Source: an uncultured Prevotellaceae bacterium
GTDB taxonomy: Bacteria > Bacteroidota > Bacteroidia > Bacteroidales > Muribaculaceae
Assembly: GCA_945921235.1 (NCBI GenBank)
Contig: CAMEKH010000004.1
Location: 1 to 49,072, forward strand
Reading direction: 5' to 3'
DNA: 49,072 nt
Numbering within the stretch: position 1 is the stretch's first letter; each line of letters begins with the position of its first letter. Shown in pieces: positions 45,549 through 49,028 of this stretch. The notes under the pieces were generated by a model that worked only from the letters and a program-made list of their open reading frames with translations, was not told where the DNA came from and ran no database searches. The translations under genes and the position numbers were made by a program.

Positions 45549-46214
45549 ATGAGCAACAACGAATATATGCCGCAGCTCTTCAATTTCTTGAGCCTGCTTT
45601 CTGTGAATAATAACCGCGAGTGGTTTAATTGCCACAAAGAAGAATTCAACTATCTGCGCAACCTTTGGCTCGCCGACCTCAAGCTGCTCATAGGGCGCAT
45701 GGCTGAATACGACAATTCGCTGCGTGGCGTCGATGTGAAAGACTGCGTGTATAGAATCTACCGCGATATTCGCTTCAGTCCCAACAAACTGCCATATAAG
45801 ACATATCTCGGAGCTGTCATTGCCCGCGGCGGGCGAAAAACGCCTAAATCATGCTACTATATTCATTTCGAGCCCGGACATTGCGGACTTTTTGGCGGTA
45901 TATGGTGCCCCGAACAAAGCATTCTCAATGCTTTGCGCCACGAAATCGACAATAACATAGAAGAATTCCTCGATATTATCGACGAACCATCTTTCAAGAG
46001 CCGCTACACACTTTCGGGCGACTCGCTAAAAACCATGCCTAAAGGCTTCCCGAAAGATTTGCCTCACGCAAAATACATAAAAATGAAGGAATATATATTC
46101 TCAATGCCCGTAGCCGACGATTATTTTCTACGTAACGACTGGATAGAACGTGCCGCAAGTGACTTTAAGCCCTCTAAGCCACTACACGACTTCCTCAACT
46201 ATGTGTTTGATTGA
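45549..46214 (+). CDS. DUF2461 (TIGR02453) family protein
   Basis: 221 residues. Family marks are 'LSVNNNREWFNCHKEEF', 'RIYRDIRFSPNKLPYKTYLG' and 'YYIHFEPGHCGLFGGIWCPE'. The protein is cytoplasmic, and I know of no established function for the family. It lies 19 bases after the cation-efflux gene, so probably in the same transcript. Confidence 0.9.
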   Translation: MSNNEYMPQLFNFLSLLSVNNNREWFNCHKEEFNYLRNLWLADLKLLIGRMAEYDNSLRGVDVKDCVYRIYRDIRFSPNKLPYKTYLGAVIARGGRKTPKSCYYIHFEPGHCGLFGGIWCPEQSILNALRHEIDNNIEEFLDIIDEPSFKSRYTLSGDSLKTMPKGFPKDLPHAKYIKMKEYIFSMPVADDYFLRNDWIERAASDFKPSKPLHDFLNYVFD

Positions 46215-46262
46215 CACCAAAGTAGGTTGTTTTTAGCACATTTTGCGTCAATGTGTGCCAAA

Positions 46263-46313
46263 GGTTAATGTTGTGTTAATGTTGAAATTAACCAAAAAAA
46301 AAGTCTAAATTTG
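46263..46313 (+). promoter_or_regulatory. Promoter and candidate operator of the vor operon
   Basis: -33 TTGA (46282-46285), a 20-base spacer and -7 TAAATTTG (46306-46313) form a good promoter. Over the -33 box lie an inverted repeat GGTTAAT/ATTAACC (46263-46269 and 46287-46293) and a tandem repeat GTTAATGTTG (46264-46273 and 46275-46284). This arrangement fits binding of a dimeric regulator; the factor is unknown. Confidence 0.6.
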
Positions 46314-46335: not shown

Positions 46336-46566
46336 ATGGCAAAAATAAGAGGTGCAGTAACTATTGAGGAGGAGAGGTGCAAGGGGTGCAATCTATGCGT
46401 TGCGGCATGCCCCGCACATGTACTCTCGCTCCAACCCAAAGAGGTCAACAACCGTGGCTATCATTTCGCATTCATGAGCTCACCCGAAAAGTGCATTGGT
46501 TGCTCAAGTTGCGCATTGGTTTGCCCCGACGCCTGCATAGAGGTGTACAGAATTAGAGAAGAATAA
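46336..46566 (+). CDS. vorD: 2-oxoacid:ferredoxin oxidoreductase, ferredoxin-like delta subunit
   Basis: 76 residues with two [4Fe-4S] motifs: C15-x2-C18-x2-C21-x3-C25-P and C53-x2-C56-x2-C59-x3-C63-P. It passes electrons from the TPP-bound radical on the beta subunit to external ferredoxin. It is the first gene of the four-gene operon. The symbol follows the VorDBAC naming used in Bacteroides; a KorDABC (2-oxoglutarate) enzyme would look similar. Confidence 0.88.
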   Translation: MAKIRGAVTIEEERCKGCNLCVAACPAHVLSLQPKEVNNRGYHFAFMSSPEKCIGCSSCALVCPDACIEVYRIREE

Positions 46567-46614: not shown

Positions 46615-47700
46615 ATGGAAGAAGTTAGACTGATGAAGGGAAACGAAGCATTGGCTCATGCTGCAATACGCTATAGTGCCGATGGATATTTCGGTTATCC
46701 TATAACCCCACAATCGGAGGTACTTGAAACACTTGAAGCCGAAATGCCATGGGACACTACAGGAATGGTAGTGCTTCAAGCTGAAAGTGAAATAGCCGCT
46801 ATCAATATGGTCTACGCCGGTGCTGCCTGCGGGAAAGCTGTGTTCACATCATCATCAAGCCCCGGTATAAGCCTTATGCAGGAAGGTCTCTCTTACATAG
46901 CTGCAAGTGAATTGCCGGCTCTTATAATCAATGTGATGCGCGGAGGTCCCGGATTGGGAACAATTCACCCCTCGCAAGCCGACTATTTTCAGGCTTGCAA
47001 AGGTGGAGGTCACGGCGACTACCACATGATTGTTCTCGCTCCCTCGAGCGTGCAGGAGATGTGCGATTTTGTGGGCTTAGGCTGGGATTTGGCTTTCAAA
47101 TACCGCACCCCGGCTATGATTCTCGCCGATGGCATTGTAGGACAAATGATGGAGAAAGTGGTGCTCCCCGAGCAACGCCCGCGTCGCACCGAAGAAGAAA
47201 TACGCCGCCAATGCCCTTGGGCCGTGACCGGGAAAAAAGGTCGCAAGCAAAATGTTGGGACTTCACTGGAACTCGACGACGACAAGATGGAGCAGAACAA
47301 CCTCCGCTTCCAGCGCACTTATCGCGAAATAGAGAAAAACGAAATTCGATGCGAATGCACAAACACTCTCGATTGCGACTATCTGCTTGTGGCTTTCGGC
47401 AGCATTGCGCGAATTTGCGAAAAAGTGATGGAAATGGCAGCCGAGGAAGGCTTGAAGCTCGGAATCGTGCGTCCTATCACGTTGTGGCCATTCCCCTACG
47501 CCCAAATAGCCGAAGCTGCCAAAGGCGTTAAAGGAATTCTCACCGTGGAGCTTGACGCCGGACAAATGATTGAAGACGTAAAACTCGCAGTGAACTGTAA
47601 CATCGAGGTGAAGCATTACGGCCGAATGGGCGGAAATGTACCTACCCCCGATGAAGTGCTGAACGCTCTCAAAGAGCTTTTCATCAACGAAAAGAAATAA
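46615..47700 (+). CDS. vorB: 2-oxoacid:ferredoxin oxidoreductase alpha subunit (VorB-like)
   Basis: 361 residues. N-terminal pyrimidine-binding domain: 'KGNEALAHAAIRYSADGYFG', 'YPITPQSE' and 'QAESEIAAINMVYAGAACGK', with the catalytic Glu. The C-terminal transketolase-like domain has 'YLLVAFGSIARICEKVMEMA' and 'VRPITLWPFPYAQI'. With the beta subunit it decarboxylates a 2-oxoacid to acyl-CoA and reduces ferredoxin. The family match is to 3-methyl-2-oxobutanoate (branched-chain) enzymes; specificity is inferred. Confidence 0.88.
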   Translation: MEEVRLMKGNEALAHAAIRYSADGYFGYPITPQSEVLETLEAEMPWDTTGMVVLQAESEIAAINMVYAGAACGKAVFTSSSSPGISLMQEGLSYIAASELPALIINVMRGGPGLGTIHPSQADYFQACKGGGHGDYHMIVLAPSSVQEMCDFVGLGWDLAFKYRTPAMILADGIVGQMMEKVVLPEQRPRRTEEEIRRQCPWAVTGKKGRKQNVGTSLELDDDKMEQNNLRFQRTYREIEKNEIRCECTNTLDCDYLLVAFGSIARICEKVMEMAAEEGLKLGIVRPITLWPFPYAQIAEAAKGVKGILTVELDAGQMIEDVKLAVNCNIEVKHYGRMGGNVPTPDEVLNALKELFINEKK

Positions 47701-47710
47701 ATTCTTGGCT

Positions 47711-48472
47711 ATGGATATAAATGACATAATTAAACCCGAGAACCGCATTTACAAACGCCCTTCTCTCCTCACCGACAGCCACATGCACTACTGCCCCGGT
47801 TGCAGCCACGGTGTAGTGCACAAGTTGATTGCCGAAATTATTGAAGAGATGGGAATGGAGGAATCTGCTATAGGTGTAGCTCCGGTGGGTTGCGCTGTTT
47901 TTGCCTACAACTATATTGACGTTGACTTTGTGGAAGCCGCTCATGGCCGCGCTCCGGCTCTCGCTACTGCAATAAAGCGTCTGCAACCCGACAAATTAGT
48001 ATTCACTTATCAAGGCGATGGTGACCTTGCAGCTATCGGAACGGGAGAAACAATCCATGCTGCCAACCGTGGCGAAAACATTGCAATTATATTCATCAAC
48101 AATGCTATCTACGGAATGACTGGCGGTCAAATGGCTCCTACCACACTGCTCGGAATGAAGACGGCTACAACGCCCTATGGTCGACGTGCTGACCTTAATG
48201 GATATCCGCTGGCTATCAGCAACCTCGTGGCTCAATTAGACGGCTCTTGCTATGTTACCCGCCAAAGCGTGCAATCGCCGGCTGCCGTGCGAAAAGCAAA
48301 AGCCGCTATTCGAAAAGCCTTCGAGAACAGTATGGCAGGCAAAGGCACATCGATGGTGGAAATCGTGAGCACTTGCAACTCGGGGTGGAAACTAACTCCT
48401 GAACAGTCAAACAAGTGGATGGAAGAGCACATGTTTGCTAAATATCCTCTCGGCGATTTAAAAAACGTTTAA
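47711..48472 (+). CDS. vorA: 2-oxoacid:ferredoxin oxidoreductase beta subunit, TPP-binding
   Basis: 253 residues from ATG 47711; a TTG at 47705 would add two residues. TPP and Mg binding: 'GDGDLAAIGTGETIHAANRG' and 'IIFINNAIYGMTGGQMAPTT'. 'MHYCPGCSHGVVHK' near residue 28 carries the Cys pair of this subunit class. It lies 10 bases after the alpha gene, and the two chains form one active site. Confidence 0.9.
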   Translation: MDINDIIKPENRIYKRPSLLTDSHMHYCPGCSHGVVHKLIAEIIEEMGMEESAIGVAPVGCAVFAYNYIDVDFVEAAHGRAPALATAIKRLQPDKLVFTYQGDGDLAAIGTGETIHAANRGENIAIIFINNAIYGMTGGQMAPTTLLGMKTATTPYGRRADLNGYPLAISNLVAQLDGSCYVTRQSVQSPAAVRKAKAAIRKAFENSMAGKGTSMVEIVSTCNSGWKLTPEQSNKWMEEHMFAKYPLGDLKNV

Positions 48473-48488
48473 AATAATCTCACGGCAA

Positions 48489-49028
48489 ATGAAAGAAGAA
48501 ATAATTATAGCAGGATTCGGAGGGCAAGGAGTTCTGTCGATGGGCAAAATTCTCGCTTACTCGGGATTAATGGAGGATAAAGAGGTGACCTGGATGCCCT
48601 CTTACGGCCCTGAGCAACGTGGAGGAACAGCTAACGTGACTGTGATTTTGAGCGATGAACGCATAAGCTCGCCTATTCTTAATGCCTACGACTCCGTGGT
48701 GGTGCTCAACCAGCAAAGCCTCGACCGCTTTGAGAGCAAAGTGAAGCCCGGAGGAGTGCTAATCTACGACAGCTACGGAATTCACACGCCACCGACGCGT
48801 ACTGACATAAAAGTGTATCGAATCAACGCTATGGAAGCTACTTTCGAGATGAAAAATGCTAAGGCATTCAATATGATTGTGCTTGGAGCTTTGCTCAAAG
48901 TGAAGCCTATAGTGTCGATTGAAAGCGTGCTGAAAGGGCTTAAAAAGACACTCCCCGAGCGTCATCACAATCTGCTCGGCATGAACGAAGACGCTCTGCG
49001 CCACGGCATGGCTTTGATTCAAGAGTAA
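48489..49028 (+). CDS. vorC: 2-oxoacid:ferredoxin oxidoreductase gamma subunit
   Basis: 179 residues. 'IIIAGFGGQGVLSMGKILAY' is the gamma-family start, and 'MPSYGPEQRGGTANVTVILS' follows near residue 40. This subunit binds CoA and closes the active site. It is the last visible gene of the operon; the 44 bases after it to the window end show no terminator, so the operon could continue. Confidence 0.9.
   Translation: MKEEIIIAGFGGQGVLSMGKILAYSGLMEDKEVTWMPSYGPEQRGGTANVTVILSDERISSPILNAYDSVVVLNQQSLDRFESKVKPGGVLIYDSYGIHTPPTRTDIKVYRINAMEATFEMKNAKAFNMIVLGALLKVKPIVSIESVLKGLKKTLPERHHNLLGMNEDALRHGMALIQE

Follow-up and report, generated by a model that had tools for sequence, protein, structure and literature searches.

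Upstream of the vor operon, whose role is the breakdown of branched-chain keto acids, we find a two-part promoter element that is kept across genera of one bacterial family. A direct repeat, GTTAA-N6-GTTAA (hereafter DR), and an inverted repeat lying just upstream of it, GCACA-N13-TGTGCC (hereafter IR), stand in a fixed geometry to each other and to the -7 box, and are linked to the promoter and not to the neighbouring genes. The DR recurs at other promoters; the IR, within the 34 genomes searched for it, is private to vor. Paramuribaculum and Muribaculaceae MAGs are among the named carriers of the motif, so that Muribaculaceae is the most likely family; a further carrier (L105) is labelled as a Bacteroides sp. 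MAG.

In the window (the whole stretch of DNA that was analysed, 49,072 nt), the repeats sit between a DUF2461 gene (45549-46214) and the four genes of the vor operon, all on the + strand. The first of these (46336..46566) encodes a 2x[4Fe-4S] ferredoxin-like delta subunit of 76 aa that matches Pfam Fer4 and related models and is OorD/PorD-like, below the NCBIfam cut-offs; it is followed by vorB, the alpha subunit (46615..47700, 361 aa; NCBIfam NF005507 VorB, 524 bits for a cut-off of 399), a TPP-binding beta subunit (47711..48472, 253 aa; Pfam TPP_enzyme_C, PorB/KorB-like, below the NCBIfam cut-offs) and a gamma subunit (48489..49028, 179 aa; Pfam POR, with TIGR02175 PorC_KorC above cut-off). 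Two copies of GTTAATGTTG, at 46264-46273 and 46275-46284, start 11 nt apart and form a perfect 10-nt direct repeat, which is flanked by perfect 7-nt inverted arms, GGTTAAT (46263-46269) and ATTAACC (46287-46293). The direct repeat exceeds chance, with one perfect 10-nt repeat at offset 11 in the window for 0.05 expected from 60 first-order simulations of 49 kb, and the inverted arms do not, 87 pairs with a 10-25 nt loop being present for 53.5 (s.d. 8.8) simulated. The sequence-only reading had singled out this palindrome (46263..46293, + strand) as a frame around the tandem copies. That part of it has to be given up: in the three loci of the same genus with a readable promoter (L003, L004, L005), GGTTAATGTTGTGTTAAT is kept, and both the second GTTG and ATTAACC are absent. 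The palindrome was dropped as the element, being near chance in frequency and not kept within the genus, and its right arm is taken as chance. A search of the genome for further GTTAATGTTG pairs, as had been proposed, found none with up to three mismatches. What is kept upstream of vor in relatives is GTTAA-N6-GTTAA and not ATTAACC, even within the genus.

The conserved element begins at 46236, upstream of the limits drawn in the sequence-only reading, and runs to about 46279, its last conserved position ahead of the -7 spacer. After a search for VorB in 61 genomes, comparison of the DNA that precedes the first operon gene gave the cross-genus pattern TGTGCCA-WW-GGTTAA-N5-TGTTAA. On the + strand of the window, the IR (46236-46259) has its left arm GCACA at 46236..46240 and its right arm TGTGCCA at 46254..46260, with 13 nt separating GCACA and TGTGC, and the DR has its two GTTAA at 46264..46268 and 46275..46279, the second 11 nt after the first. 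Across 85 representatives (vor sites below 75% identity), the first GTTAA is identical in 85/85 and the second is kept, base by base, at G 78%, T 89%, T 91%, A 100% and A 98%, and the G preceding the first (46263) is found in 92%; all these letters were part of the search pattern. The left arm GCACA is absent from the search pattern, yet it recurs in constant position, 13 nt ahead of TGTGC (offset -18..-14 from TGTGC), with 75-97% conservation per base in the representatives.

For 35 loci of the family, the choice rested on the VorB protein and not on the motif. In 22 of them the full motif, with no more than 3 of its 18 bases mismatched, is found 250 bp or less from the operon, compared with 0 in 50 shuffles of the set; it is in none of 15 vor loci of other families. 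Among the 13 family loci without it at that distance, L039 has the motif further out and L005 is cut by a contig end. When IR and DR were sought separately, both were present in 21 of the 35 loci, and in 21/21 GTTAA starts 10 bp after the first base of TGTGC; exact GCACA/TGTGC pairs in these loci have a spacer of 13 in 16 cases and of 14 in 2. The pattern, with at most two mismatches, is found in 132 of 397 family genomes and in 25 of 30 genera, mostly once per genome. From the site set, 22 of 144 pattern matches, all with two mismatches, were left out, and removal of 9 of 132 site copies as identical left 123 distinct sites. Of these, 106, among them each of the 53 perfect sites, share the strand of a vor operon and lie at most 400 bp upstream of it, in a set for which the letters of TGTGC and GTTAA served as bait and in which counts from relatives are not independent events; each of the 17 sites that are not vor-linked carries one or two mismatches. 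The window's own genome shows no full-motif regulon, with one site (vor) versus two control matches at up to three mismatches.

The symmetry of the IR extends beyond its core. Its outer bases covary, with the pair -19/+5 Watson-Crick in 52% of cases versus 37% in shuffles (0/1000 reached that value) and the pair -21/+7 in 53% versus 41% (p 0.018), and the covariation at -19/+5 looks as expected for a symmetric site. DR and IR are separable, since two vor loci (L269, L273) retain the DR after loss of the IR and two others (L013, L016) retain the IR with a worn DR. A search for GCACA-N13-TGTGCCA in 34 chosen genomes, mostly motif carriers, returned 45 rows, 26 at vor and 19 elsewhere, with 13 in the control. 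In this search the IR is thus private to vor, the 19 non-vor rows being near the control level; an IR regulon was accordingly rejected, the surroundings of 13 of the loci showing no common theme. Two further arrangements were seen at the IR. Upstream of vor in L025 (G015:C14) it forms part of a longer, perfect palindrome whose arms measure 18 bp or more (CCTTAACCTATGGCACAT ... ATGTGCCATAGGTTAAGG), so that GGTTAA too has its copy on the left side. In the window, a 12-nt inverted repeat, 83% complementary (ATTGACACCAAA/TTTTGCGTCAAT, 46210-46221 with 46241-46252), has one arm over the end of the DUF2461 gene and the other in the IR loop.

The element is also linked in its geometry to the promoter. 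The -7 box of the window, TAAATTTG (46306..46313, + strand), begins 26 nt after the end of the DR and matches the Bacteroides consensus TANNTTTG, as given in PMC12632263. A TAnnTT(T/C)G box stands at a phased distance in 105 of the 106 vor-linked sites: the end of the DR and the box are separated by 26 (41 sites), 27 (48) or 28 nt (8) in 97 of them, and by 36 (1), 37 (2), 38 (3) or 39 nt (2) in 8 more, with no box at the remaining one. These eight spacings are approximately one helical turn longer, and 3 of the 8 sites have an extra TGTTAAA at the usual distance. The suggestion that the vor promoter has a pair of half-sites spaced by one turn is therefore borne out, GTTAA-N6-GTTAA being kept across genera at a -7 distance that is fixed or increased by one turn. 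The spacing between element and promoter holds despite a gene start 177 or 230 nt away (L032, L039). The IR is centred about 58 nt before the -7 box, with no overlap.

The repeats had also been said to cover the -33 box. In the window this holds only in so far as a TTG that could act as a -33 element in this genome lies within the second repeat unit (46282..46284, + strand), and no -33 box is kept across the family. At -26..-22, TTTG occurs in 4% of vor promoters (n = 97), 19% of general promoter-like sites (n = 206) and 6% of decoys (n = 70); for a looser TTG the respective figures are 15%, 34% and 11% at -25..-22, and 30%, 36% and 17% at -25..-20. As a group, vor promoters thus have no conserved -33 box, TTTG being no commoner in them than in decoys. 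This scarcity, which amounts to a moderate difference, would fit a vor promoter that relies on an activator.

When the surroundings of 19 vor loci were compared, the genes beside the operon had nothing in common except the four vor genes, the next commonest neighbour clusters (DUF2461 is one of them) occurring at 4 of the 19. A regulator gene adjoining vor was also sought, and none is linked to the operon in these loci. Because the flanking genes differ in nearly all of the 19, the element travels with the promoter. In vor loci of Bacteroidaceae/Prevotella (e.g., L102, L106, L108, L120) there is no element and no clear promoter near the first vor gene, and the bases before vor resemble, by eye, the 3' end of another gene; in these relatives vor may be co-transcribed with the preceding gene.

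The DR is found well beyond vor. With a -7 box 26-28 nt downstream, GTTAA-N6-GTTAA occurs in 55 of 147 family genomes, versus 2 matches in the reversed control. It lies before an ftsX-like gene in seven genomes of one genus (g7; L278-L284), 28 nt from the -7 box, and at rRNA-like promoters in another (g4); a looser match precedes a gyrA-like gene in the window's genome (names such as ftsX-, gyrA-, Sua5- and PadR-like were read from translations, not by search). At the ftsX-like promoter of L278-L284, TTGAC stands just after the DR. TGTTAAA-N4-TGTTAAA stands at 37-38 nt in both rRNA promoters of G243, P1 and P2, and is missing from the rRNA promoters of G083 and G116; in rRNA loci of other families the DR form is essentially absent, with one loose TTAA pair (L363). 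The exact form GTTAANNNNNTGTTAAA gave 54 matches in 24 chosen genomes versus 18 in the control, and no match in the window's genome (G000). With the -7 spacing left free at 20-49 nt, there are at least 150 sites in 147 genomes versus 10 control matches. Among the matches listed, the 29 vor sites are all at 26-28 nt and 113 of the 121 non-vor sites are at 26-28, 36-39 or 47-49 nt, in a count for which vor rows were marked by hand from coordinates and in which rRNA operons and genus g7 are over-represented; outside g7, counting once per genome and spacing among the matches listed, 41 of 49 are in phase. The DR was searched in one orientation, and the control totals of 2, 18, 13 and 10 (DR, GTTAANNNNNTGTTAAA, IR and free-spacing searches) were summed by hand. 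Since the non-vor sites listed cluster at 26-28, 36-39 and 47-49 nt, the DR is a promoter module of the family that occupies three helical positions. In G000 the only phased DR among the matches listed is that of vor, so that no DR regulon is visible there. GTTAA as a feature of all promoters was rejected, with no peak in 210 promoter-like sites versus 70 decoys, which agrees with a feature of a subset.

Two other sequences were seen between the DR and the -7 box. A BT4338/Cur-like palindrome (TATGTTnTAnAACATA) is present there in 7 of the 16 sites at 47-49 nt among the matches listed, by eye four exact and three with one mismatch (G090:C99:44602-44673, which is L332, G077:C489:63305, G006:C6:63675, G129:C21:19589, G034:C4:159719, G118:C11:119448 and G103:C25:767). 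In several genera the same interval holds a run of about 6-10 G (G064:C35:288156, which is L345, G112:C3:31044, G096:C25:19735, G102:C7:44679, G082:C17:15874 and G073:C17:6057). Slippage in such a run would alter the spacing between DR and -7 box, and a phase-variable promoter is possible.

Our preferred reading, which we put forward tentatively and as a little short of probable, is that the vor promoter is composite and activator-dependent, the DR docking a promoter-contacting factor and the IR serving as a vor-specific operator. The factor would occupy the DR with two subunits, both on one helical face, and would contact RNA polymerase, replacing the missing -33 contact; the likeliest candidate would be a winged-helix response regulator of the OmpR/PhoB family. 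A second, dimeric regulator would bind the IR, presumably with some cooperativity, and would make activation, which we infer rather than repression, conditional on a signal tied to the vor reaction. Branched-chain acids or redox state, the candidates of the sequence-only reading, are no more than guesses for this signal. An alternative that we consider possible, though doubtful, gives the DR to the polymerase itself: it would be a UP-like element in which the GTTAAA repeats dock the C-terminal domains of RNA polymerase alpha, and only the IR would be the operator of a regulator. UP elements are the sites of this alpha domain, and those of E. coli are A/T tracts. Such a dock is suggested by the presence of the DR at rRNA promoters (P1 and P2 of G243, at 37-38 nt, and rRNA-like promoters of other genomes) and by its multi-turn positions, which among the matches listed take in 113 of 121 non-vor sites; for a DR at rRNA promoters of some genera, a general polymerase-docking element is no worse an explanation than a response regulator. 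The Cur-like palindromes in 7 of 16 sites at 47-49 nt, again among the matches listed, also look as if alpha were docked upstream of an activator. However, all 85 vor representatives have the G of GTTAA in the first half-site and 78% have it in the second, a strictness to which the search pattern itself contributes; TTAA contains a TpA step at its centre; and many of the rRNA promoters examined have A/T tracts without GTTAA.

The composite, activator-dependent reading has also to be weighed against explanations that dispense with activation. Conserved inverted repeats are typical of repressors, and a full motif found once in its own genome, with the IR outside vor near the control level, would suit a repressor operator comprising the whole element; we hold this to be unlikely, given an IR centred some 58 nt upstream of the -7 box and not overlapping it, a helical phase with that box that survives one-turn insertions, and the lack of a conserved -33 box. 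The covariation of the arms beyond the core (pairs -19/+5 and -21/+7) could also be that of an RNA hairpin, such as a terminator belonging to the upstream gene. This explanation is very improbable and is rejected mainly because the flanking genes vary among the 19 loci, differing in nearly all of them; moreover, the loop is fixed at 13 nt, no T run follows, and pairing at the positions that border the loop (-13/-1 to -9/-5) is not clearly above chance. As for the repeats being a chance feature of AT-rich DNA, the ATTAACC arm does behave in this way, but for DR and IR the idea is refuted by conservation, shuffles, phasing and the fixed offset, and we give it practically no credence.

Muribaculaceae are abundant gut bacteria, and we found nothing relevant on their promoter motifs in the open-licence literature, nor any description of the element, nor anything on the regulation of ketoisovalerate oxidoreductase or on rRNA UP elements of Bacteroides. 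Our wider proposal, in which our confidence stops somewhat below even, is that this family may use a helix-phased GTTAA direct repeat, absent from the literature searched, that precedes the -7 box by about 27, 38 or 48 nt. At rRNA, cell-division, Cur-like and metabolic promoters this repeat would be the docking site for a global activator or for RNA polymerase itself, and vor would add to it a private IR operator kept across most genera despite changing neighbours. A module of such strict geometry at rRNA operons and at a fermentation operon is a testable handle on transcription control in Muribaculaceae, and the IR of vor is a bait for a regulator without a linked gene.

Several known systems resemble parts of the element. 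The CIRCE/HrcA operator, TTAGCACTC-N9-GAGTGCTAA, also has inverted GCAC...GTGC arms, but these are arranged there as GCAC-N13-GTGC and at vor as GCAC-N15-GTGC, and the outer letters differ; together with sigma-54 and Rex sites, it was dropped on inspection against the consensus sequences. Like a UP element, the DR lies just upstream of the core promoter, is helically phased and occurs at rRNA promoters, in some genera only; unlike it, the DR at vor is a G-containing, sequence-strict GTTAA and not an A/T tract. The BT4338/Cur site, reported as wwwTATGTTnTAnAACATAwww in PMC6989115 and PMC3878776, is likewise an activator site of Bacteroidales upstream of a -7 box. Its palindrome has other letters and is matched by neither part of the vor element, TATGTTnTAnAACATA being absent from the vor consensus. 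Bacteroides HTCS sites are direct repeats too, but they are about 21 bp apart (PMC3878776), and with a period of 11 at vor this identity was rejected. A further likeness is to the WalR/VicR box of OmpR/PhoB-family response regulators in Firmicutes, TGTWAH-N5-TGTWAH, or TGTWAHA-N4-TGTWAHA in extended form (PMC4168254). It shares with the DR the direct half-sites, the 11-bp period and the letters, the second vor half-site reading TGTTAAA. Against the consensus as given there, TGTTAA in this second half-site is a full match; the first, GGTTAA, deviates at its first base, with GG instead of TG, and vor differs further in adding a locked IR. The window's genome has three PF00486 matches above cut-off, that is, OmpR-type DNA-binding domains. 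One of these regulators, L421, presumably resembles RprY; RprY was considered as the binder and set aside, the literature searched giving no binding consensus for it. It is the likeness to the VicR/WalR box, together with the presence of three OmpR-type regulators in the genome, that points to a response regulator as the candidate occupant of the DR.
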